Below are positions 3,386 to 62,177 of a DNA stretch of 64,000 nucleotides, piece by piece. Source of the DNA: Glandiceps talaboti (Eukaryota; Hemichordata; Enteropneusta; Spengelidae). The notes under the pieces were generated by a model. The model searched no databases. It was not told where the DNA came from and saw only the letters and a list, made by a program, of their open reading frames with translations. Each line of letters begins with the position of its first letter. Position 1 is the first letter of the stretch. Location of the stretch: assembly GCF_964340395.1 (NCBI RefSeq), contig NC_135560.1:16598598-16662597 (forward strand). Reading direction: 5' to 3'. The position numbers were made by a program, and so were the translations under genes.

Positions 3386-5320
<1,935 letters not shown>

Positions 5321-5354: not shown

Positions 5355-7009
5355 AAATGGAAAAACTTTATTCTCTGTGTATCTTAGTCTACCAGTTTTT
5401 AATGCTGGCATGTTTTCATATTATGTTACAGTGAGCTATATTACTATTCGCAGCATCCAATGTATTGTGATTAGGAATCCAACTTCATTATTTCAGTATT
5501 TTACATATCTCTTTTAATGCTATCTTGTACAGTGTTCCGTCAACAAACTTTACTCTGAGAAATTTAGACTAAGAGTCTAGACATATTATGAGTGTATTTA
5601 AGGTATGGGGAAACTATTGTGAAAAGTAAAGAAAACTGTTACCATTGATAACATTTTATAGTGGTAACAAGATGAATGAGAATTTTAGAACATGTTATAC
5701 AGCAGTCTGTACTTCTTAACTCATCTTCTGTGCAATGAAATAAGACATAAGTACATGTACTGTATCTTCATGTGTAAATGAAACTTTCTTTACCAGGTCA
5801 TAAGATGTAAGTGGGTGACTTCAGACTAAACGAACACTAGTATTAGTTTCATTTGTCATAAACTATGAAATAATCACTGTCCAGTGAAATATTGATACAC
5901 ATATTATTCAGATGTTCATATCCTGAGGTTTGTACAAGTTTGTGAAGTCTTCCTCAGGGTTGCATCAGTGAAATCACAGAATAAACATCAAGTTAAGTCT
6001 TCATAGAGAAATTGCAACAAACCAAAGAAAATCACACTTTTAAATGTAGGGTTAGTTAGACTCTACAGTTTGTTTTGTACATGTAGTTGGGGGGGGGGGG
6101 ATACAAGTGTTGTGAGGAGCTACGTATGAGAGGTCCAAAGGAAATCTTTCCCATTTAATTTGACATCGGGTGATGCCTTTATTCCCATATAGTGCATAGC
6201 TACCTCCATAAAATACTTGATACATGTATATTGTATATCAGGGTACGTAGTCACAAATGTCAACTTGTACCAAAGATTCTTCTTGATAGCTTATAGTACT
6301 AATTGTCTGGTTAAAATGTCGTGCTCAGCTTCAGGTTAAAATCCCATATATACCCCATCTTTTTAGAACAACTGTTACTATGCGAGTATAATCTTGTATC
6401 ACTGAATTGTACATTGGTTGGTTAGGTTTAAAGTTTCAAGGGTCAAGTGGTCATGTTTACCGCTTTGTAGAATTGATACTTTGAGGAATCATGATTAAGT
6501 AATTCCACCAGTTCAGAACATGCAGTTAATATCAATTTTATTGTAAAATTTCTTATTAACATTTATTATGCAACAGAGTGAATGTTTCTCTTTGTTATTT
6601 CTATTGACTACATATGTATATTTTCACCTGACCCATTCCTGTTAGTAACTAGGGTAGCCTAGGGGGTCACGTGTTCTGGTATAAACTGAGCCACAACTTT
6701 TTGTGAACATTTGTTTCTAAACACTATTAAACTCGGCATAATGGTTAGAAGCAGTGTCCAAGACACACACAAACACTTTTACTTAGATAAAGTAAAAATT
6801 TTAATAGTGCCAAAATCCAAAGTTCAGAGGCGCTTCACAATGCATAACAATGAAGCAAAGTATGTCTTTGAAAAACACAAAACAATGAAGACACATGATT
6901 ATTCTAATATATATATACATATATTGTAATTGTGTGTAACCCATATATATGCATTACACATAGACACAGACACATACACAGACAGACACACACACATACC
7001 TACCTACCT

Positions 7010-11376: not shown

Positions 11377-14300
11377 ATGTCCAGTGTCCAGCTCCAGCTT
11401 GCTTCGTTGATACTGGGCGAAAATTATGGCGAAATAGTAAAACAGGTCTGTGCACATTTGATAAAGAATGGCGCAAGGCTGCTGAGATCTTTAGCAGCGG
11501 AGACGAAACTAAAACTTGACGAGGTAAGTACTAAGTTGTAACATGGACGTCTATGGTTGTAAGTGGTATTTTCACATGTTTTCATACTCTAGGCCACAGG
11601 CACTTGACAAAGGATATATCATATGAAAGAAATAAACATTTAAAAAAATTATGAAATTGATATATACGTACTAGTAATTCATAATTTTAATTTTTTCTGT
11701 CCCTTGCGCCAAGTGCCCGTGGCTCTAGCCCAATCTCAAGTTCAACAGTACATTTGTATTATAATCAGCAGAGATAGCAATAGGTATACCATTCCAACTC
11801 TGTTGCATTTCAGACATAGGTGTTTGATTGATGAAAGTTGTTTTCATAAAACTCAGAAAAGGGATGACTATATCATATATGTACATGTCTGTCCCACAGG
11901 CACGCTCCCCATGAGATCAGAGAGGAATGTAAATTAACAAACAGTAATAAAGAAAATATAAATAATATTATGTGCTCATGAAGCGTTTGTTTTTCCTATG
12001 TTCATTTCATGTAGGTCAGGAAGGCATTATGTATATTGATACAACATCATATGGTGACATTCACTGCTAGTAAACGTGGAATGGTGGAATACCAAGCTAA
12101 TGTTAAGAATATATTACTACACATTAGATATCCAAGGTGAGCTGTGTCAAAAATTGTCAGATTGTAAGAAGATAACTGAGTTAGAGGGACATTAGAGGGG
12201 TTCATGTGTGTTTTGGGAGTAACATTCAGGAAACATACTTACAGCACCAGTACTATCTAGAATATTTTTTAAAAAAAAGGTTTGTTTCAAAAAATAACTT
12301 AACAATAGAAATCCGTTCAGTTTTAGAACTACGTAAGAGGGATATATTGCACACTCTGTATCTGTATGAGTGTATCACATTGCTGCGGAACTGTCCAGGC
12401 TTTTGCACAGTCAGTTCACAGGCTAGCCCAGAGTCATCCAGGCCTGGCAACATATACCACCTACAGGTTCCGTGTGTGAAATTTTCCTCAACTGTTTAAG
12501 TCATTATTCCAGGAGTCCCCCAAAATTTGTACTCATTGTGTGAATGAGACATGACTGAGTGCTACAGCCTACCCATCGAGTCTGTAGAACACTCACCCTT
12601 GGTTTGGGTCAGTAACAGTAAAATCCCTTGTTTCCAGTGGAATTTGAAAGTAAGACCTCTCAACTACTAATCCTGAGCTTTGACCACTATATCATAGTGA
12701 GCTGGTTTTGGTACTTTTGCTGCGTTGCATACATTATATTACTTTTGTCTTACTATTAAAGTAAAATGGTATGTACTAGTATATTGATGTTGACTGTTTT
12801 TGAATTTTATATAAATTGTTGCAGGTACATCTACTGTGCTAAGACACTGTACGGGGACGCTGGAGAACTGATAGTTGAGGAAATGCTCCAACATGGACAA
12901 ATGTTAATGAGCCAAGCTATCAGTAAAGTAACAGAGAGACTGAATGAAGCAATAGAAGGTAGATTTCTGTCATTCATATGGAATCTTCATTCTATACAGT
13001 CTTGTATGGCTCTGTGTACACTATTATAAATGCAAATATCTACTCACAGTCAAAAAAAGTTTGGAAAGGGAATTACACATTTTTCTGGCCTCTCATTAGT
13101 TTGTCAGAATGTGTACTTGGGTGGACAGATGGCAGAGAACCCAACCTATGTTGGGATGCAGGTATAGATATCACCACTGTAGCTGTCAAACTTCCTTCAC
13201 ATGTGTCCCATAAATTACACCCAAAGGATCACTGACAAGATGTCAGCAAATGTTTAGGAAACTGTTTTGATTCTCTGTGTAGAAATTTTCATGTACAAAG
13301 TGTTTATGAAGTGAACTGGAGTGATACAGCTGGAATTTCAGTGCCAGCATCCAGACTGAGGTTAGGCCTTGGTGGATAGTTCAACCTCCGCCTATAGACT
13401 GTAACTGGTCTTCATTGTCCAAGAGTGTAACTTTCTTCATATCACATAAATGTCTTCACGATGTTCTCTTATCACCTTTGTTCTATAGACAGTAATATCT
13501 GTCTTATCTTAGATAGGCGCCACAGATATGTGAGACAGGTTGCCCTCTTCTATACAAGGATACTAACAGATTTTTTGTCTGTTTCTTATATAGGTGATCA
13601 GATTGTAGACCAGATATTTGTCAGAGATAAGTTCATTGACCTAGTCAACACACATTTCATAAAGAGAGTAGGCTATCCACAGTCAGATGGTGACATTGAT
13701 ACCAGGGCATCATCAGTTCCTGTGTTAGACATCGAAGAAGATGATTTGTATAAAATACCAATGTGTATGCAGAGTTCAGGAGGTAATATTTATTGATACT
13801 ATGTAGACATGTGTACAGAGTTCAGGTGAAATATATTGATCCTATGTAGACCATATATATTTATTCGTCATTTCATACTCTGTTAGTAGGAAAGCACTGT
13901 ATAAAAAACTAACATTACTATTATGATGCAAAGTGTGGTGTTTGGTGTGAGTATTGTGTCGTTGTCTGGTTTTCTAATAGCTGCAGTATTACCAGGAAAT
14001 AAAAGGAGGAGATCAAATGATGCAGCTGAGGGAAGCAGCAGCAAAAAAATGAGGACAGATTCTGGCATGTCAGAGGATGCTAAAGAAGTAAGTTGACTGT
14101 CGCTGACTCTCAGTCTGTGTACATTTGTGTTATCAGTGTCAATAACCACAAAATGTAGAAAGAAATAACTATGTATCTGGTTACCGTAGTGAAGGGTAAA
14201 TTGTACTCCAGTATCGATATCAGTTTGCTGAGAGTAGGCGCATTCATTTTCTTTATCAAATCTGACCACCAGGTTGAAATAGGCTTATTTGCATGAGGTC

Positions 14301-17300
14301 AGAGTTCACTTGAGGAAATATGAATTAATTATAGTTATAAGATTTATAAAGATGTTTTCCCCAATTGAACCCTGATGATATGCTAATGATCATAATTCAA
14401 TATGATGGATGAAATTTGGGATGTGTCAAAACTTACAAGATTGCAACGGAGCACTGTATGTTTGTCAACACACAGAAAGAATTTCATTTGCAAATGGCAA
14501 CTTATTGGATGATCATGGAATGATTAGTTTCATCAGATGCTGGTATTTAGTGTGTGTGTCAAGTTACAAAAACATTTCACCCACACATGTATAGTAGGTA
14601 ACCACTGAACTTTGATTGAATTAGTTTCCTTCTTCCCTTGTAGGTAGCACCAGATGATGGTATATATTGGTCAGTGAATTTCAACAGATTTCATCAACAT
14701 ATTCGAGATCAAATCATTATAGATACAGTATCTAGAAGAGTTGATAAAGTAGGTATACCCCAAGTTCATTACCCAGTCTTTTCAGTTGTATTGTAAGCAT
14801 ATCAAAGTTACCTACACCTTGAAAAAACAAAAGATTGTATAGTTTGGCCACTTGGGGTGCTGTTTGTCTGGAAGCAGAGCGGCAATGAGGGCCATATTTT
14901 ATCACTAGTAATAGTCTTGGTTATCTAGACTCATGTATCTGGTTAAAAACAGAACTGCCCTATATAAACAGGATTATGGCTAATCTATGCAAATACGGGA
15001 AATTCAAACTGCTGTACAGAGCACTAGCTTCTGGGTTGTGTTTTTCAGCATTTGTTTCTGTGCTCCGAGAAACACACAGGTCATGAATCATGTACAAATT
15101 GTTTGTGAATTTCATAGGATGGTAACTTGATACACAAATTAATTGAAAATCAATCTGTTTGTTTCATAGAATGAAAAAAACTTTCAAAATGAGACAAATC
15201 CCCCTGCAAACAGCTGTTTAGATTGTGTGTTACTAAGTATTCAAATATGCGGCATTTGCATGTGAACAACCCAGATAGGGAATGTTTATATTCTGTGATT
15301 ACTTGCCAGTGAGTCATCACAAGTTCTCCATCTCCAAACAATACAGTCAGTCATATGCAAAATAGGGTCCCAGACACGGGCTGCCCCTAGAGAGTCTGGG
15401 GAGATAGGACATAAAAAGTAAGCTACTACTATAGGTTAGGACACATAAATCATGTGAGTAAGGCCATAGATTGAGTTTGTAAAATGATATTATTTAAAAT
15501 TAATAGGTATCTGTTGCTTTAGACTGTCAAACATATGGCACAGGAACTTGAATTGCCTGGGATTACACTCGATGTCCCATTCATTCTTAGCAGTTTTCGT
15601 TACCATGATACAAAAGAATAGGTCAAAAATTTTGTTTGCTATTTCTTGAGACTCTCTCTGGGGGGTGATAGCGGTAAGTGAGAGCCCCAACAATAAGAGT
15701 CTGGGTAACTGAGGCTACACTCTTACAATGGTTTCTGTGCAAAACTTTGATGTTACAGATTGGTGCTGAAGTAGTACGGACTATGCTCCGTGTTAGTGAA
15801 CTTACAACAGATCCACAAGCTATGATGACAACTCCCATGTCAAGCTATGAAGTCTTTCAAGCCATGCCACAAGAACTAAATCTACCAAAACAAACCTTGG
15901 ACCAGTATCTAAAATTGCTAGCTGATGACCAGGTATAGAGTACAGAACAAAACTTGGGTTCAACTTTTAATCTAAATTTTTACATTAAAAATTTTTTTTT
16001 CCAATTACAGTCTTGTATAGTGGTGTTTCTTGATCCACCGTAAATATAAATGTCAATAACCTAAGCAAGAGGAGAAGCACTACTCTGGCAATCAAGGTCT
16101 CAGTTAACTGAGTAAGATAGACACAAACTAATACTATCGTTGTTCATTGTGGTAGGATTACTCAAGTGAGTGATAATTCAATCACCTGTGATCAAGATAG
16201 TGTAAACATTGGAAGTCCCCAAAGTTTACACTACAAGATAACAGTGTGAGTACGAACATCTATCTTAGTAAACCGAGACCTCGGTTGCCAGGGTAGTAAT
16301 TGTTGTGGTTTGATTGTAGATTTGTTTTAACTTATATAGTTGAAACAGTATTTGTGCCAAAATAAGTAAGCGTTATTCTGAATAATTGTAGTTAATATTT
16401 CAAATTAAAAGTAACATTAATAAAGTAATGTGGCTATAAGTACACTCTAGTGAACAATTATTTACCTGCCTAAATAAAGTGAAGAAAAAATTGTGAAAAA
16501 TTTTCTTTCCGCTAAAATGTTTGTGCACCTGAAATAAATATATTCACAGTGTAGTGAGGCATGTGTAAAGTTAGATTCAAACTGGATTAATTGATATCAA
16601 GGCACTTACCATATTTACTGGTTGATTGGATTCATATGTAACATTTGACCCCCCCCCCCCCCCCCCCCCCCTTGACTACTAAAATTCCACTTTTTACTCC
16701 TTTTTTCCCGTTACAGATGGAATTTATTACGAAAACTGGTGAAAGTGGTGGTGGCATGTATGCTATGAGTATCCTTTATGAATTCAATTCTTTCAGTTGG
16801 ATTTATATTGAAATTCCTGAATGATATTCAGTATGCAACTTAAATACATTATTTCTGTTTACTCCCACTCATATACACGCAATGTATCAGCCGTGTACCT
16901 ACAGCAATATATACAGTCATGTACACAGGTACTGTCATGTGTAGAAAAGACAGACACTGTGACATGCCTGTACACACATCAATGTATCAGTAGTATGCCT
17001 ACAGCAATGTATACAGTGATGTAGCCACACTTCTGTTGACAGGGCTGTGGTTACAGCACTGTTACAAACCTGTGCTGTCCTTGTAGACACAGACCTGTAC
17101 CATGGGCATGTTACAGGGTCTGCACAACACCAGTTACAGGGGCGAAATTTTGTTTGGGTGTGTAGTGATAGTGACACATTGCATTTGTCAACAAAGAATA
17201 ACCACTTTATTTTGGAAACACGTCATGGATGCCCAGTTGTTTCAAATGTTTGGGTGTATGGAATAAGTATGTAAACAGCACCATTTCCCCTTAACACACT

Positions 17301-23246: not shown

Positions 23247-44118
<20,872 letters not shown>

Positions 44119-45359: not shown

Positions 45360-47420
45360 TATAGTAAATAATAATAAACTTTATTGTAGCCTTATCTATA
45401 ATTTCAGATATCAGTACAATACAATACAATAAAGTAAAAAAAGAAAATGCTTGTATTGACCACACACAAAAAGAGTAATTTCACAGTGTGAAAATCAACA
45501 CAGCATATTGATTATACAGATAGTGATGTAAATGTAATTGTCGAATGTATATCACGAGGCAGCTGGTATATTTTTGTTCAAATGATATTCTCGAATTTTG
45601 AATCCTTTTTGAATAAATTTGCTTATTTCAACTAATTTATTTGTGTCTTTTATTTTGAAAATCTTTATGAGATTATCCGTGCTTGTACCAGAATATATAT
45701 TTAATTTGTTAAAGAGTTCTTTCCTTTCATTTTGATATCCTGTACAGCGTAATAAGAAATTCTCCTCGTCTTCTATTTCACCTTGTTTACATATAGGGCA
45801 TGTCCTGCTTGATAAGGTGGTGTTTGTGTATCTTCCAGTTTCTATATGTAAAATATGTGCACTAATTCTAAGTTTTGTCATTGCTGATCTGTATTGTGGG
45901 GTTTTTAATGTCTTCTAAATAGTTTTCAAAGTTCATATCCGTTTTAATTTGTCTATATGTATGTAGTTTATTTTTATGTTGTTTGTCATTGTTGTCCTTC
46001 ATTGTGTCCATTATATTTTTGTGGAGAAACAACTATAACTTAGATATTAAATAGTAGGGGGCTGAGGCCATCCCCTTGTCAAATACCTCTCTGTATTGGA
46101 AATTGGCGGGTCAGCCCATTTTTTGTCTTAACACATCCAGTTGCGTTTGAATAGATAGATTTGATTACTTTATAGAAACGTCCTGTGATGCCATTGAGTA
46201 CCAATTTGTGGAAAAGCCCTTCATGCCAAATTGAGTCAAAGGCTTTTTTCAGGTCTATAAAGCAAGCAAAAATGTATTTATCTTTACTTCGGTATTTTGT
46301 AATTAACTGGTTTAGAACAAATATGTGATCACTAGTACTGAATTTAGGTAGAAAGCCAACCTGTTCTTTAATTATAATGTCATTTTTGTCGTTAAATTCA
46401 ACAAGCCTCTGTTTCAGGACTGAAGTGAATAATTTACTCAAACAATTTAAAAGTGTGATGCCACGATAGTTACTGGGGTCTGTCTTGTCTCCTTTTTTGT
46501 AGATAGGTGTAATTATACCCATATTCCAGCATCTAGGAAAATGGCCACTTTCGAGAATTAGATTGAACAGTTTTTGAATGTGTGTAATGAGAACGTTTCT
46601 ACAGGCTGTGATCATTTCATTGGTTATGTTATCTATTCCTGGTGATGTTTTGTGCTTGAGTGTACTTATTGTTTTTTTGAATTTCAAGCTGAGAGACTGG
46701 CCTATCTAATTCTATGGAATCGGCAATATTTTCTAGCCGGTTCTTTTTACGAACATAGGTGGTATCTGAAGTAAGTTTTACCTTGTTTGAACTGAGACTT
46801 TTAAAATGCTCGAACAGTTTTTATTTCTCAACAATTTCTCCATTACATGTCTTACCCTCTTGTGGCGCTCTTAAGTTCTTAATAAGTTTCCAGTATTCAT
46901 CGGGATGTGAACCACTCAGGTTTTCTAGTTTAGACAATATTTCATTTTTAAATTCTCGTTTCTTTTTTTTCACAGCCTTCTTGTAGTTTTTCTTTTGTTC
47001 ATAACAACTATTTCTCAGCTGATGGTTTAAATGGGTCGGTGCTCAGTTTAGTGGAAAGATTGTGTATCTCCTTTTTCATAAGAAGAAAGATTTTTTGTGT
47101 ACCATGTTTGCTTTCTGGTTTTCTTTTTCTTTTTTGTTTTTTTTAAAGAAGCGTTTTTTTAGGCTTTTACCAGCTGCCTCGTGATAGATGTCTGTAACAT
47201 AATGCCAGCCTGATCAACTGACTTTTTAGAATTATCAAAATGTTCTCTCTCAAAGTTCTTAGCCAGTACTATTACCTCCTGGCTCTGTAATGCATTGTAG
47301 AAATAATATTTTGAGTTTATATCCCATATGTATGAGAAGTTGGATTGACAATAGTTATTCAAGTCATCTGCTGTAGAATTAGGTGTAACTTTATCATCTT
47401 GTAGTATGTTAGTATTATCA
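45360..47420 (-). mobile_element. Broken non-LTR retrotransposon (linker, RT, zinc knuckle)
   Basis: Read on the minus strand from about 47420: an endonuclease-RT linker (47362-47159), a segment with LSGSHPDEYWKLI, then the reverse transcriptase (46687-46079) with SPGIDNITNEMI, YKKGDKTDPSNYRGI, FIDLKKAFDSIWHEGL and FPIQRGI. A stop interrupts the normal Q-G-D-x-LSP continuation, a further stop follows LLFN, and the F/Y-x-DD catalytic block is deleted. The C-terminal zinc knuckle survives at 45881-45552 (CPICKQGEIEDEENFLLRC) with the usual His replaced by Asn. The 3' end has AATAAAG and an ATT-rich tail near 45360-45390. The N-terminal endonuclease was not found. It is inactive and related in layout to the fragment at 30196-30660. 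Confidence 0.85.
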
Positions 47421-52997: not shown

Positions 52998-55900
52998 CTA
53001 CAGCTGTAACTTCTCCAGTTCTTGGGCAAACTTGAGGATATCCAGCAAGTTCATTCCAAAATCTGTCTGCAAACTTTTGTAGAAGAACTCTGGGGCCTGC
53101 AAAGTTGTTAACAAAGATTGTAAATACATGTACATATACATTGGCCACTTTTTCATCACTGAATTAAAAATTCTATGCACTTCAGCATTTTATTTTCCCT
53201 GCTTCAGTATAAATACTAAAGTCACTGGCAGTTCAACAATCCACAATAGCACTGAAACACAAAATGTCATATTTATAGTATAAGAGTATTTTCACAAACA
53301 CAGTGCAATTGTTGTTCCTTACCTCTTTCCTCAAATTATGAAGTTGAACCAACGTTTGACCTGAAAGCTGGTTCAACATGTCTTCGTTATATCTGAAAAA
53401 TAACACATTGATGACTCTAATCAGTTTGAATTCACCTCATTATGATTTACTTCACCATTTCTCATTTTATTTCTCAGTTCTCTGTTTTAGTGTCATGTTA
53501 CTCTGCCCTCACTGGTCTGCTCTATCCATGAAAGGGTTGACTGATGTTTGAGGGCGCCCTATCATGGCGTACCTCACAGTCTATTTTTGTCTGTCTGTCT
53601 ATCCATCCATCAACCAAGTTGAACCAACCCATATCTCCATCTCCCCACTCACCTACCAGCCATTTCACCCAACCAACCAGCCAATCATTGTCCCACCCAA
53701 CCAACCATTGTTCCAACCATCAGTTCATCCATCCATCCATCCATCCATCCATCCATCCATCCATGCACACGCCCTACCAGCCATTCATCCATCCACAAAC
53801 ACACCCTACCAGCCATCCATCAATCCATCCATCCTTCCATGCACACACCCTACCATCCATCCATCCATCCAACCATCCACACACCCTACCTGCCATTCAT
53901 CCATCTATATATTGATGCGTATAAATTCATGATTGAAAGTAAATATATTCCTCCTTTATATTTGGTAACCTTACCGATTAATCTGACTATTCTTAAACCA
54001 ATTCTTGACATCCTCAACAGTCCATTTCTTCACCTTAGAACTAGTTGCTGATATTGGGGGTAGGGGAGAAGAACCAGTGGGAAATTCTCTCTCTGGAGTC
54101 ACTGCTCTGCTCTGTGAAAAAAACCCCAACAAATGTCAAAAATCAATTTCATGAAAAGATCTTATTTAGAATTAATGACTCTCTTCTTAGAGCAAATGAA
54201 GCCATATTCCAATAAAGCATGTCTGCTGCCATTTTGGCAAGACATGTACATAGACATAGACATGTCACATGAGAAAAACAAGGACTATAACATTTGTAAG
54301 TAGATCTAACAAGTTATTAACACAAGCTATCTGAATTATAATTAAAAAAGTGTAGACAGGAATAACAAAATGAATGCCACCGTTCTCCCTAGGAGAGATT
54401 GCAAAGATGGTGACTAATTTGCATATTACTTTACATATATAACATGTTAATTTGCATATTTGTTTACATAGTGATCAGCATATAATAAGCATGTCTTTAA
54501 CATTGAAAGATACTCTGACATGTTTGTATTTAATATATAAACACATGGCTATTGAGATCAGATATTTATCTTCATGTGAATGCATTGTATTATCATGATT
54601 TTGCCATTCAAAGATTACAAGGATGGTAGAACACTTTTGATGCATGGTAGAAACCTGTCAAGCATGACAGCCTGGGTGGTAAGGAGAGTGTTAGTGCCAT
54701 GCTTTCTCTATAGTGGGGAGAATACAGTGCATGTTCAAATCAAGTGCCAATGAATGAATGTTGTCTGCTGAAAATAAATAATTTCTTGAGTCACACAAAC
54801 ACAAAACATTACTTTTTGTAGACTTTTTGTAGCAATTCTTATACATTATGACATTTTCAACGGAACATTTTCGAACAGGAAAGAAGAAGACAGGTCATAC
54901 ATTGATGAAAGTTCATGGTAAGGTCAAAGGTACGAATATTTTAACAAAGAAAGTTCAAAGTTCACAGCTAGGTCACAAAACCACAATCTCAGGAAGGTTA
55001 CTAAGATTTCATTCCTTGTAAAATCACACAAAACTGGAAATGTATGTAAAGATAACAATACTACTAAACTAAACAAAGTTCAAAGTTCACATAGAAAGGT
55101 CATGATACAAGGGTATACCAAAAGTTCAAAGGTCACATTTACTATGAAGAACAACCACACCACATTTAGTGTAGGATATTTGTACCATACCATAGTAGTA
55201 GTATTGACAGCGTCACTACCTGTTGTTAAGCTATGTTTCTTCTGTGGAAATAAAATTTAGAACTTTTGGATTTAATTATAGATTTTAAGATTTTTATATA
55301 TTCTGTAATGACTTTAATCTCACTGAGGTTTATGGTGATTTTGTTTTTGCAAAATCATATATTTACATTACTTAGAGTGATAGTATAATGACTTCGATTG
55401 TTTGGTAGAAATGAATATTCTAGTAAATTTTCTGTTGATATGTTTGTGTCAAGTCACCATTGGTGTATTGTTTGACATTTTGTCCTATGTGTTGTTAAAG
55501 AACTCGGCTAAAGTGTCACTACTTAATTCTGAATCAAGGCGATCATTTTGAAAATAAGTTACTCTGTATGTAGAGAACAGCATCTTGGATGTACAATAAC
55601 TATAAACTGTCTAAAAGACTAATCATAAGGAGCAAAAACCAATAACAACAGTCTAAAGAAAATATTGGCAACAAAAAGGTTCAAACTACAGAAAAAATCT
55701 TAATCAATGTGTAAAATTTGCCATTGACAACTTGTGTTTTGAGCCGGCTGACATTGGAGTATTAGAACATTAGAACTGTCAATCAAATGTTAGCAACCAT
55801 TAATGCTGATAGCAGACAGTAATCAAACTCTAAAATAAACTTACCCCTGTATCAACTACAATGTCTTTGGAGTCTCTTTCTGTCAATGACGTCTACAAAT

Positions 55901-58900
55901 AAATAAAATATAAAGTTAAGAATGATCTATATATTGCTGTCTTCCCTTGGTATACATTATTTTACCATGCACAGGACAAGTTGAACAAAATAATATCATG
56001 GAATTTATACCATGGTCATTCTACGTCATGACAACTCGTGTCTACATTCCCTGGTTCTGCTGTGTTCGAAATATGAGTCAAAATGTTCAAAATTGCCATT
56101 GCTTTCCCCGATTTTTCTTTGATATTACTGGCAGGGGTATAATTATATTATTCTCCAATATTTGTCTTCATTCAGCTGAAAAATACTCATTACCTAAGGG
56201 TTCAAAACCTAACTTTTGTTCAAGATTTAAACGTACAGATAATATTGCCCACAAATTATCAGATACACCATATTTTTATAAGTTATTGACCAATTTTTAG
56301 TGAATACATCTTTATTTATTTGATGAATAAAATTTAACGTCTCTGTTTCAGCTAATGAAGGTTTAAAACAAACCTTTTCTTTGTTATTCCTCATCTCAAT
56401 CTGCTGAAGCAATAATTCCATCTTCTCCTCAAAAATTTCATCTCCTTCTGAGAAATCAACATACAACTGGTTTCCCAGGAATGCTCCCAACCAGTTGCCA
56501 GGTCTAAACTCTTCCATCTTCAAAGGAATAAAATCCTTCTTGAGCGAAAAGACGTATTCTCCTTCTGTAAATGGTACAAAATTGAAAAAGGAAAATTAAT
56601 AAAAACACAATGTATTTTATGCAGTTATTATCTGATATCCTCTCTTTGTTTCTTTGTATTACTCTCAGTTCTGTTTCTGTACAGGGACATGAGTTGGAAG
56701 ACAAAATGTCATGGTGTTGAAATGGCACAAATGTGAGAGATCCTGTTCTATACTGTAGAATTTATAACAGGAGGAATGAAAGGGTATTCACTTCTCCTTG
56801 GTGGGGAATACAAAAGATATACATGTAGATAAAACAGTCACTAAAAAGTAGTAAACTTAGCAATGTTTCAAGTTACTACAAATAGAGGTAATATTAGTGT
56901 CTAATAACATAACAGCCACTTGTGAAAGTTGTATGACTTTGTACCATGCAATGGCCACTTGTCCTTGGAGAAGGAGGCAAAAGGTGCTGGTACCTTATAT
57001 ATCATGTGCAAAGGAGAATGTGAATGTCAAACACAGGTAATGTGAAATTTAGTTAAAGGGGAACGCCTACATGTGAATGTCCTGGCAATGGTCCAGTGTT
57101 TCCTAGCTCATAAGAATTAGCATGAGCAATAACTTTTCATGGCTATTTATCTGAAGGTAATATGCACTTAGGAGGAATGAATATGTATTGCTCATCTAAT
57201 ACATATACATGTCTGCTGACTTCCATCCATGATGCAACACTGGATCAGTGCTATGTCAATGACTGTGAAACCTGAGTTTAATTTTGCGTTTCTTTGCATA
57301 TCGCATGCACACAATTTATTTGATGTGAAATCATGAAATGACTTTTCAGAACCCAAAGTTTACGAAAATGCCTTTATTTCCTGAAGTGGTGTTCCCCTTA
57401 AACAGAACAATTCAAGCCTTCTCCGTGTTCAGATTTTAACTGAAATGATAAGATTAAGAAGTTAATCAGAATTTACCAGTTCTGCAGTTTGGACTCTTTT
57501 GATAAGCCTTGCAGTAACACACCAGTACCAAGTAGGATTCCTGTACAGCATCTGCCATGGCATCCAGTATTGAACCAGACATATTCTCAACATCAATCCA
57601 TGTAACATAGCCCTTTGCTCTCAGTCGCTGATTAATTTTCAACACAAGTCTGTATAGGGAGAAATTACAATTTAATTTGTGTTCTTATGTCAGAAGCTGC
57701 AGATTTTATAGGTAGCAAATTATTGTACAAAAGTTCATAAAAAGATTTCTGTTAAATTCAGAAATAGAAGATCTTGTACTTGCCATTTTAGGTGGGGCAT
57801 GTTTATCTCACCTTTGTGCAAGGGTTGAATATACTAAATGTATGCATGGTTCAGACATGACTGTGTTAAGCCTTGTTTGCAGTCACATGGATAGATCCAA
57901 GCACACACACATGAAAGCACCACATATGAAAGTCACCACTCCTACAATGATTTAGCAAGGCAATACGGAGTTCACTTTGTGCCTGAAGGACCATGAAATT
58001 GCATTGAACATCTAGATGTACATCTGAGTGTTACCTATAAACTATAACAAGCTAATTGTCTTACTTTTGATATTTCCAGTTGTAACTCAACATAATATGA
58101 CCTTTCCTGATCCCAGGCAATGAATTGGGTGTTGCTGACATGCTTTTTGTTACTGTAGGTTGTCCGTCCTGCTGGGTCAACAATGGTGGGGGAGGGGGAG
58201 GTGGTGCTTCCCCTCCTGGTACAGAAGGTTGTGGTGGTGGTGGTGGGGGAGCTGCTTGGCTGACACTTGATGGTGGTGGGGGAGGGGGATGGCCTCCGTG
58301 TGAGAGAAGCTTTCTTGTATCTTGATCTGTAGTGTCAATGCCTGGCCCCTTTGCTGAACTTGGTCTGATAATAACAGCTTCATCATCACTATCGTCTTCA
58401 TCTACATCATGTGCTAAACCATTACTCTTTGTGATCTCAAATTCATCAGTAGCAATATCTGTCTGTTTACTCTCTTTTTTCTGATCACTTTGTAAAACAA
58501 ACAGTGCCCCCTCAGCGTTCTTCCTAATCCTCTCATCTGGTGATTGCATGAGCGTATACAGTGAGTTGATGATATCCCCTTCATCAACTTTTGCCTGTAG
58601 TAGTAATGCTCTGTTACTTTGAACAAATGCTAAGTTCCATATCAATTCCGTAGCTAGGACCTGCACTTCTGTTTGTTCTGACTTCAGGAATGCTGGTATG
58701 ATATCTTTTCCACCTTCCTCGCAGATCACTTTCTTGTTGTCGTCTGCCACAGCGTAGTTGATCAAACTCTGCAGTAAGTCATTTTCTGTCAGTTCTCCCT
58801 TGGTGTGACGGCTAGGAGGAATTAATCCTAAAAGCTGATTCAAAATTTGTGGAATTGCTTTTGATTTGTCAGCTGCTTGGCTGATATCCTTCACATCATC

Positions 58901-61900
58901 ACTATCAGTGACTAAGTAACTAAGTGCCATGACTGCCTTGGTTTTGGTCACTTCATCATCTGTTACATCAGGAATTTGTTGAAGTACACTAATTGTGGTC
59001 TCTGACTTCATAACTTTGTGATTCTTCTCCACTTTGGACATTTTAAATACTTCTGAAACTACATCTGGTAGTTCCTGATTTACGGAAAAAAATAAGAAAT
59101 TCACTATTAAAATAAGGTACTAATTTAATTTACATATTAATTCTTCTCTAAACAAAAACATTCAACTATTGTACACTTTTGTCACAAAAAATTGTGTGTG
59201 AAAACTCAAGTATTTAATCATTCCGATTTCAAAACATCATCTGTGATTTTGCATATTGTAAACTGATTTTCAGGGTCTTAGATACATATATAGACTTTGT
59301 CACTTTGTTACAGTAGTCTTGAGGCTATCTGTTGGGTTTGAATCTGAAGATCTCTTCACCCCACGTCTTGCTTAATGAGAAGCTGAACGAAAGTTAGTGC
59401 TTATTGGGGGGCAGTTACATAATGTCTAAATATGGTATATTTGTCATATCAAGACACTACTTTGTCTTATACACTGTTTATGTCATACTAACAGTTGGAG
59501 ATTTACTCATATGCATACACAACTTTGGGTTCATGATTTGAATTGAGCTAGATGTAAGGGGTAAAGAGATCAACAGCTCATAGCCTCTAGACTACTTTAA
59601 CAGTGCCATATATTAATATCAACAGTTACATATTTCCGTTGATATGCTCTATGTACCTAGATCCCATCAATGTGGTCAACTTTTATGTTGGGCAATAAAA
59701 CAATTTTCAGCCTTGTATTTTTGTGGACCATTCTTTGTCTTTTTATTCTACACAAACAAATAAAATTCATGTCAATGTTGTTTAGTAAAGTTCCACACTG
59801 ATAGTTTATCGTTTATCAACTTGACTCAAGAATAACAGTATACATGAGCAAAGCCCCCCCCCCCCCCCCCCCCCATCATAACACTGATTGGTATCCTGAT
59901 TACACTGTGGCTTTTTACAGCACACATACCATACTTCTACAAAATCAATTCCGATTAGAATTAAAGTATCTACTGTTGTCAGTCATTATGGATTCTTTGT
60001 GAAAGACAGCAAATATTTCTTATCAGCTGTGATGTTGCCCATAGCAACCTGCAAACAACCAAGTACTTTGAAGTAAACAATATAGATAAAGGTCAAGGAT
60101 GATTACCATGGTCACAATAATTACAGCGCATTTCATGTTAGTGTTCACAGGCTCTGTTACAGTGCATTTCATGTTAGTGTTCATGGGCTCTGTTTGATAC
60201 AACCATGCAGACACCAATAAGAAACTGCACTTGCTACCCTGTAAGATAGCAAGATTGAATGAACAAAGTTTCTTCAGATAATTTGCCTAAATGAAGTGAA
60301 CTGTCACCATGTAGATACAAATATAGAGACATCAAAACATTGGCTCCTGCATGTCTGGTCTAGTTGTGGTACATTTATAAATGGTTTATTTCATTTACAC
60401 AAAATGTAGAAAGAAACTGGAAATTGTGATCTTGCTATCTAAAACTTAAGAGTGTAGAATGTGTGGTTTCTTATTGGTTTCTGTGGTGTGGTTGAATCAA
60501 ACATAGCCAGTGAACACAAACATGAAACGGACGGCAGAAATCAACACAATTTTGATGGCATCATTTTTTATGTAGACTATTTCTTATTTCATATCAATAA
60601 ACAAATTTCTGTCTATCTTTTTGCGACATGAATTTTTTTTTTTTTTTAAAAAGAAAGTAAGAAAGAAAGACTGACGGACCATAAAGCTCACAAGCCTTGG
60701 ATTATTAAAATAAAAATACCATAAAAAATAAATTTTTTCAATCTGTGTATTCTTCTAAGCCAACTTTTGAAGATTTTTGTGATGAACTGTTTTTGTTTAC
60801 TTGATTTTTTAAAAAACAAAACGTAACCCTCTCAAACTTATTGTGACAGTCCTATCTAGGCTGCACTGATTTGTCAAATTGCGTCAAATAATTGAAAACC
60901 TGATGAACTCATGCCCTTTCCTTGGCATTGTTTGAATTACTCACTAGGATAACAAAGCAAGGATTCCAAAGTTGTGTACTACTACCACACTCTGTCTGTG
61001 TATGTTTCGTCTTTATTTCATTGTTAGTTACCATTAAGTGGACAATGCTGAAAGCATGAATTCTGGCATAATGCCAAGAGGCCGTAGCTTTTGCCGCCAC
61101 ATATATTCAATCATATCGTTTGCATGAAATTAATATCAACATTAGTTTTATTAGGATGGATAATATGACAACATACATGACCTCAAATCAATCAACCAAT
61201 CAATGTTAATCTTACTGACCTCTCATCCCATCAATTATTACATCCGACAAAAACAAGGCTGCCTTATTCAATATCTTGTAATTATATAAACTGTTTTATA
61301 TGTCAAATTTAAAATGTCTAATATTCTTTATATGCAACTATGCGAAGCAAACTTCACAAGAAAACTGAACAATTTTGTGACTTAGAGTGATGTAATGTTA
61401 AATCTTCTATAGTATTCTTTTTCTTAGCTTGTAATGATCTGCATTGGTCAACTCTTAATTAATGTTTTTTGGTCAGGTTTAAAGTAACTGCTACTGATAA
61501 TATACACTTCATTGAAAGCATACCTGTATACATACATACATACATACATACATACATACATACATACATACATACATACATACATACATACATACATACA
61601 TACATACACACACAATGGCATGTATACTAATAAACTGTCTGTTATCTTATCTGACTCATAACTTAATATATACCAAGTATTCAATAGATACACAAATATG
61701 CAGTGCATAAAAGTACAAACAATGGTTGTCAGAAAGGCAGCTACACAAAAGAATCTTGAATTGACAAAGCTGACAAGTTTATATATACAATGTGTACAGC
61801 CTCTTCAAGATTGACATATACAACCACTTGAGACATGTTTATCATTGAAGATCTCCTTCAATGCAGTTTTGCATACTCACCTCCTTTGAAGCTGTTTCTT

Positions 61901-62177
61901 TGCCACCATCAACACTATCAGTACTAATATCCATAGCAACGAGGACGGTCATCTTCTCTGTAATTTCTTGACATCTGGTTTTCCTCTGTGCAGATGCAGG
62001 TCTTTCCTGTTTGCTGGGTGCAGCATCGTGGCTTGTTTTTGATATAGATTTCCCTTCTTTGCTTCCAGCTGCACTGCCATGAATTTCAAGTGGTTGACCT
62101 TGATTTTGACTGGAACGAGAATCTGACTTTTGGTTTTCTCTTTCTTGGGTCTTTTTTTTCCTCAGAGTTCGCAACAT
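52998..62177 (-). CDS. ARM-like / poly-Pro / TIR / SAM protein (8 coding exons)
   Basis: The product is 674 aa. Exons in transcript order: 62177-61881, 59074-58065, 57649-57477, 56564-56374, 55892-55845, 54111-53975, 53392-53323, 53096-52998; all GT-AG, all phases join. Residues 1-100 are basic and disordered. About 100-310 form ARM/HEAT-like helices ([45 protein letters not shown]). An acidic patch ([10 protein letters not shown]) follows, then three proline runs (about 362-396). The TIR domain spans about 424-557: [11 protein letters not shown]-loop [29 protein letters not shown], and E494 in CRTEGEY at the position of the TIR NADase glutamate. The SAM domain is about 603-670 ([12 protein letters not shown] to [14 protein letters not shown]). 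SARM1 is ARM-SAM-SAM-TIR, so this is a rearranged relative or independent fusion. NAD cleavage is inference. ATG 62177 is preceded by an in-frame stop. Confidence 0.88.
53700..53915. repeat. (ATCC)n microsatellite and ~40-bp minisatellite
   Basis: A run of ATCC units at about 53725-53765 is followed by roughly four copies of a unit with CACACCCTACCAGCCATTC plus ATCC spacers (near 53766, 53799, 53843 and 53880). It lies in the intron between the two SAM-coding exons 6 and 7 of the minus-strand gene. The Pro/His/Ser-rich open frames here are artefacts. Confidence 0.85.
59390..59510. repeat. Dispersed repeat, copy 2
   Basis: Same family as 33560-33700: TTATTGGGGGGCAGTTA, ATGGTATATTTGTCA, then ACACTGTTTATGTCA. 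It lies in intron 1 of the minus-strand ARM-TIR-SAM gene. Confidence 0.6.
59854..59874. repeat. 21-nt poly-C run
   Basis: A homopolymer in intron 1 of the ARM-TIR-SAM gene; on the transcribed strand it is poly-G and G-quadruplex-prone. Confidence 0.9.
60121..60192. repeat. 36-bp tandem duplication
   Basis: 60121-60156 and 60157-60192 match with 3 differences (TTACAGCGCATTTCATG then TTACAGTGCATTTCATG). It lies in intron 1 of the minus-strand gene. Confidence 0.85.
61531..61606. repeat. (CATA)n microsatellite
   Basis: About 19 tetranucleotide units, 275 bp downstream of the exon 1 donor of the minus-strand ARM-TIR-SAM gene. Confidence 0.95.

Follow-up and report, generated by a model that had tools for sequence, protein, structure and literature searches.

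The axon-killing enzyme SARM1 and Caenorhabditis elegans TIR-1 are nicotinamide adenine dinucleotide (NAD+) hydrolases in which the modules follow the order ARM-SAM-SAM-TIR. In SARM1, the ARM domain holds the TIR domains apart, the SAM domains cluster, and the TIR acts once it is clustered. Here we describe a gene in a 64,000-nucleotide stretch of the genome of the hemichordate Glandiceps talaboti (NC_135560.1, positions 16,598,598 to 16,662,597; hereafter the window) that also joins ARM, TIR and SAM modules, but in which the ARM part is shorter than that of SARM1 and a single SAM comes after the TIR.

Parts of this layout have been reported before. Cytosolic TIR proteins are widespread in invertebrates (PMC6321704, PMC6836662), ARM-TIR proteins are listed among immune adaptors of oyster (PMC4346834) and Aplysia (PMC9334734), and ecTIR-DC family 6 combines ARM, Death and two TIR domains (PMC6836662). 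The oyster and Aplysia proteins and one ecTIR-DC family resemble the window gene in uniting ARM and TIR, and the available portions of these accounts mention no SAM after the TIR (PMC4346834, PMC9334734, PMC6321704, PMC6836662). Conversely, TIR-SAM hybrid genes, with complementary DNA (cDNA) recovered, were reported from amphioxus in 2008, and one of them, Brafl1_131196, known to us by description only, carries TIR and SAM in one gene as the window does; the accessible part of that description does not mention an ARM (PMC2575513). ARM also occurs with TIR in choanoflagellates (PMC6040629), and the ARM-TIR-SAM layout appears neither in the accessible part of that paper nor in that of PMC8195603. 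A literature search, conducted mostly on titles and the opening lines of abstracts, found no paper describing ARM-TIR-SAM; the families of Gerdol 2017 (ecTIR-DC) fell outside its coverage, and we therefore claim no first description.

The gene lies on the minus strand between positions 62177 and 52998 (Table 1). Re-derived from the window, its eight exons have AG/GT borders and agreeing phases and give 674 codons and a stop in one frame. None of the exons contains an internal stop in this reading. In exons 1-7 both remaining forward frames are interrupted by stops; exon 8 has one further open forward frame, and exons 5 and 7 also have some open reverse frames. The encoded modules are ARM (about residues 100-305), an acidic patch (324-331), prolines from 362, TIR (about 425-557, with box 1 at 425-430, SPNCRTE at 488-494 and the WLG block at 518-524) and SAM (about 600-674, starting at W603). 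The joining of exons 6-8 is supported by ten relatives in which the SAM lies complete within a single open frame, and the assignment of TIR and SAM to one gene by the recurrence of their order in relatives. Exon 5 stands out among 52 in-phase open cassettes of 30-200 nucleotides between exons 4 and 6, as no other combines a GTAAG/GTGAG donor with a YAG acceptor. Exon 1 is stop-free in frame and scores +0.11 bits per codon. A possible upstream exon near 60046 has an acceptor, but its reading, judged by eye, runs into a stop. The original prediction of one gene of eight in-phase exons was thus borne out, as was its order of ARM, acidic patch, polyproline, TIR and single SAM (by Pfam matches and residue positions, and for the SAM through relatives), and the ARM-TIR-SAM gene is apparently intact in its sequence.

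Other genes in the assembly (590 Mb, 47 contigs) share this order. TIR_2 is found at 150 places or more, about 85 of them, by hand count, in open frames of more than 850 residues, and residues 100-674 matched the genome at 68 places, a count that takes in the exons of the window gene itself. We fetched 20 stretches around chosen places and then two more, 22 in all (numbered from L029); places on contigs C10 (11.3, 19.8, 20.06, 20.34 and 24.6 Mb), C12 (22.538 Mb), C14 (18.72 Mb) and C17 (15.82 Mb) were left unread. Domain searches and iterated profiles were applied to them; the profiles were built on the same stretches against which they were run, and their E-values are therefore inflated. Of the first 20 stretches, 15 (L029, L030, L031, L034, L036, L038-L046 and L048) show ARM, the first and second halves of the TIR, and SAM in that order along a single strand, and L049, from the additional pair, holds a sixteenth relative ordered ARM, TIR, SAM. 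L029 and L030 overlap, yet they contain two different genes on opposite strands. For these two, and for L031, L034 and L036, the detected SAM is limited to its C-terminal part, which begins in L029 and L031 at APEFFY, as exon 8 does. Elsewhere, L032 gave ARM and the first TIR half; L033, L037, both genes of L035 and the first gene of L036 are ARM-TIR without a detected SAM; the second gene of L038 gave TIR only; L047 is TIR-SAM, with no ARM match within the stretch; and L050 gave TIR pieces only. In a small unrooted tree of 14 TIRs, that of the window groups with L033 and L037, on a fairly long branch (0.50) exceeded by those of L030 and L037.

The window gene is therefore no one-off: by comparison with these sequences it is one of a family of probable immune function. 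The contrast with ARM-SAM-SAM-TIR stands, with one SAM after the TIR in the window and in 16 relatives, but the idea that the gene had a layout of its own does not, given at least 16 other genes of the same order in this genome and, as far as the consulted part of that report goes, the amphioxus TIR-SAM gene of 2008 (PMC2575513). Two features of the family's arrangement deserve mention in their own right. Ten SAM-bearing members (L038-L046 and L049) lie within about 0.44 Mb at C9:14.51-14.95 Mb, and L034 contains, at 5602-6180 on its minus strand, six tandem matches to the first TIR exon piece (VISYQWGSQ...), spaced by 82 bases in three of the five steps, a minisatellite made of a coding exon in a relative.

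The SAM, taken from the window alone, is likely but not secure. Searched against PDB with phmmer up to E 10, this segment matches 12 sequences, all at E 0.1 or above; five of the 12 belong to SAM domains, with sphingomyelin synthase 1 and neurabin at their head. The segment also matches Cas9_a (0.0016, below cut-off). The relatives support its identity. In an 11-row alignment, SAM_3 and SAM_2 each match 10 rows and SAM_1 matches 8 (Pfam, E 0.1 or better; best 4e-6), and the L041 SAM, the member shown in full, lies under the curated Pfam cut-offs. Structure prediction, suggested for the SAM at the outset, gave a SAM fold for L041 (mean predicted local distance difference test, pLDDT, 89.7) that matches the SAM domains of SARM1 (SAM1), Shank2 and DGK-delta; SARM1 SAM1 is the closest of the three, though they are in a near tie. 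A frame of 298 residues across TIR and SAM in L041 contains simple repeat and may cross an intron, and we did not use it as proof of a single exon.

A genome search with the L043 SAM alone found 13 places, all inside fetched stretches (L034, L038-L049), and at every one of them the second TIR half lies no more than about 1.3 kb upstream, on the same strand; all except L047 also have an ARM match. A Pfam SAM_2 scan of the genome (E 0.001) gave 32 places and none of these 13, so the family SAM is too divergent for SAM_2 at that threshold. That an ARM-TIR gene and a SAM gene were mistakenly read as one is thus extremely improbable: the 1.7-kb intron before exon 6, the small size of exon 5 and the relatives without a detected SAM would fit such an error, but the constant TIR upstream of the SAM, the agreeing exon phases and, in the part of the report seen, the published amphioxus TIR-SAM cDNA (PMC2575513) all argue for a single gene.

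The ARM assignment rests on exon 2. Pfam Arm matches the whole protein in a single stretch, residues 210-248 (4.1e-5; 23.9 bits against a cut-off of 20.6), and residues 100-302 alone at 7.3e-7; phmmer with the ARM part found designed ARM proteins and Vac8 and, weakly, importin alpha. An AlphaFold model of the exon-2 reading, made with no relatives in the input, was unusable for the ARM fold (mean pLDDT 43.5). The proline-rich linker, which had been proposed to replace the SAM pair of SARM1, is present in the window but not general, as ten relatives carry the last ARM repeat and the TIR start in one open frame with a short linker between them. An acidic run and the words RP-SAKG follow the ARM part in L035, so that the long linker is not entirely peculiar to the window.

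The TIR passes its Pfam cut-off (TIR_2, residues 426-545, 6.9e-20; 72.2 bits for the whole protein against a cut-off of 28). We aligned the spliced TIRs of eight members, the window included, choosing relatives with the first TIR half in one exon (alignment A3); S5, Y6, W8, W29, D31, N66, C67, R68, E70, W94, L95 and G96 are common to all eight. Run against PDB, this profile ranks the bacterial TIR protein Cat1 first (6e-6), followed by SEFIR (9e-5), RPS4 (0.002), MyD88 (0.004), tir-1 (0.005) and SARM1 (about 0.1). E494 falls on a glutamate of Cat1 and, through the family profile, of RPS4, which we take to be their catalytic glutamate. By eye, a glutamate at this NADase position, in a codon split by an intron, is kept in all 21 relatives for which both exon ends were printed. 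Cat1 (PDB 9mud), a CRISPR-associated TIR effector that forms filaments according to its PDB title, is the closest solved TIR by sequence; the match is confined to its TIR, and it has the WxxxE tryptophan. PADLOC gave distant bSEFIR and other TIR models only, viral contigs searched with the TIR contained no relative, and plasmids searched by tblastn gave only two weak matches.

This ranking, nearer Cat1 and SEFIR than SARM1, agrees with the TIR type originally proposed, and it bears on whether the gene could be a SARM1 orthologue with rearranged modules, which we consider very improbable. The three module types are the same and the modelled SAM fold lies nearest to SARM1 SAM1, albeit in that near tie; yet there is one SAM instead of two, the TIR profile scores better on Cat1 and SEFIR than on tir-1 or SARM1, the tryptophan four residues before the glutamate is missing, and a 2026 preprint, in the part available, finds the TIRs of SARM1 separate from every other TIR of animals (PMC13142454). 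The window TIR thus seems to lie outside the SARM1 group, and both the order of the modules and the TIR profile make orthology of the gene with SARM1 improbable. The same preprint names eukaryotic TIR clades 10-13 as uncharacterised (PMC13142454); the window TIR may belong to one of these clades among animals, a placement that is a guess. A search of the genome for SARM1 itself gave a SAM/TIR pair on C15 (L051, L052) that looks, by eye, like a different gene of SAM and TIR-like type, and an 18-base degenerate pattern for a SARM1 motif matched twice, as often as the reversed control, neither match being SARM1-like by eye.

Overall, the reading we favour, with confidence somewhat short of even, is that of a protein-coding animal gene belonging to an expanded ARM-TIR-SAM family in a TIR-rich genome, and most likely to an immune-type family that assembles through its SAM. 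Gene structure, ARM and TIR domains, module order, family, conserved glutamate and, by way of relatives, the SAM are what the sequences establish; the working that we propose goes further. The protein, presumably cytosolic, would be kept quiet by its ARM part, which may sense or bind a partner; once released, the C-terminal SAM would drive assembly, and the clustering would set the TIRs to work, most likely in the processing of NAD+ by way of the conserved glutamate, with the outcome of signalling infection or damage, or of killing the cell.

Several observations weigh against this reading. With the whole window protein, Pfam reports no SAM over cut-off, and the SAM segment alone reaches only 0.021 for SAM_3, below cut-off. 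Exon 1 has no recognised domain in residues 1-99 and no match in the 20 stretches of relatives, the extent of the search made with it. Ten of the 20 stretches have an additional ARM segment upstream. No such segment was found in the window, and the gene may therefore be incomplete towards its N-terminus, above all at exon 1. It is improbable, however, that the gene is a decaying family copy, either a pseudogene or an N-terminally truncated one: the missing segment and the fairly long TIR branch (shorter than those of L030 and L037) would suit decay, but 674 stop-free codons over eight exons with intact splice borders would not.

The WxxxE tryptophan is a further point against, since by eye none of the 21 relatives has it (N, S, P, R, T or M instead) and the window has asparagine. 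It also speaks for a quite possible, if somewhat doubtful, alternative, in which family and assembly are the same but the TIR has no catalytic role and serves as a scaffold. As an adaptor or decoy it would bind other TIRs, for instance those of Toll-like receptors, while the SAM would provide the clustering and the ARM would bind partners. The many TIR genes of the genome, MyD88 among the profile matches and, in the portions available, the listing of oyster and Aplysia ARM-TIR proteins as immune adaptors (PMC4346834, PMC9334734) are in keeping with a scaffold, while the glutamate in 21 of 21 relatives, and the high rank of Cat1 and RPS4 beside SEFIR and MyD88, point the other way. This glutamate occurs in more than 70% of all TIRs and, in the part of that study consulted, need not accompany reported activity (PMC7075850); its conservation is compatible with catalysis but no proof of NAD cleavage. 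An oligomerising amoeba TIR with NADase activity is reported in the accessible part of the 2026 preprint (PMC13142454). NAD+ cleavage by the family TIR is plausible from its sequence, and we give NAD processing a small edge over a role as scaffold alone.

Table 1. Exons and protein segments of the ARM-TIR-SAM gene, in window coordinates
Feature	Position	Strand	Content and basis
Exon 1	62177-61881	-	residues 1-99; basic, Ser/Lys-rich N-terminus; ATG and donor GTGAGT; least certain exon
Exon 2	59074-58065	-	ARM part, acidic patch, prolines, TIR start
ARM-type helical repeats, residues 100-305	58457..59074	-	exon 2; Pfam Arm, phmmer
Acidic patch DEDDSDDE, residues 324-331	58379..58402	-	position in sequence
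Proline-rich linker, residues 362-397	58181..58288	-	sequence
TIR start (HIMLSY), residues 425-436, exon 2 end	58065..58099	-	Pfam TIR_2
Exon 3	57649-57477	-	residues 436-494, TIR; ends within codon of E494 (SPNCRTE)
Exon 4	56564-56374	-	residues 494-557; TIR second half (IPL, WLG block)
Exon 5	55892-55845	-	residues 558-573; linker exon of 48 nt; phase 0 at either end, so that skipping would keep the frame
Exon 6	54111-53975	-	residues 574-619; linker and first SAM helix from residue 603
Exon 7	53392-53323	-	residues 619-642; SAM middle
Exon 8	53096-52998	-	residues 643-674 and stop; SAM end (APEFFY...LDILKF)

Elsewhere in the window, a single-frame ankyrin-repeat open reading frame of 644 residues lies at 3386-5320 (+) and is presumably FEM1-like; we take exons at about 12760-15938 (+) to encode RNA polymerase III subunit RPC3, those at 30844-44118 (+) a carotenoid oxygenase of the BCO/RPE65 kind, and open frames at 45552-46705 (-) a reverse transcriptase of the long interspersed nuclear element (LINE) type. 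In the assembly at large, the 51-kb contig C40 contains mitochondrial COX1 three times at a spacing of 15,435 bases, likely an assembly artefact of a circular molecule; the 600 bases of COX1 inspected for the mitochondrial code, as a guide to the phylum, contain no AAA codon.

The family raises the question of whether a TIR switch gated by ARM and assembled by SAM, as in SARM1, arose on more than one occasion, and its members, at least 17 genes with differing linkers and some seemingly without a SAM, offer a natural series for module-by-module tests. A bolder proposal, which we regard as unlikely though worth stating, is that of a second, independently assembled SARM1 design, in which a TIR from outside the SARM1 group gained an ARM in front and a SARM1-like polymerising SAM behind, and was multiplied into differently tuned, self-assembling, NAD-processing immune sensors. 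Judged by its sequence, the window gene can be classed as a SARM1 counterpart with rearranged modules, probably not orthologous, that belongs to an invertebrate TIR expansion.
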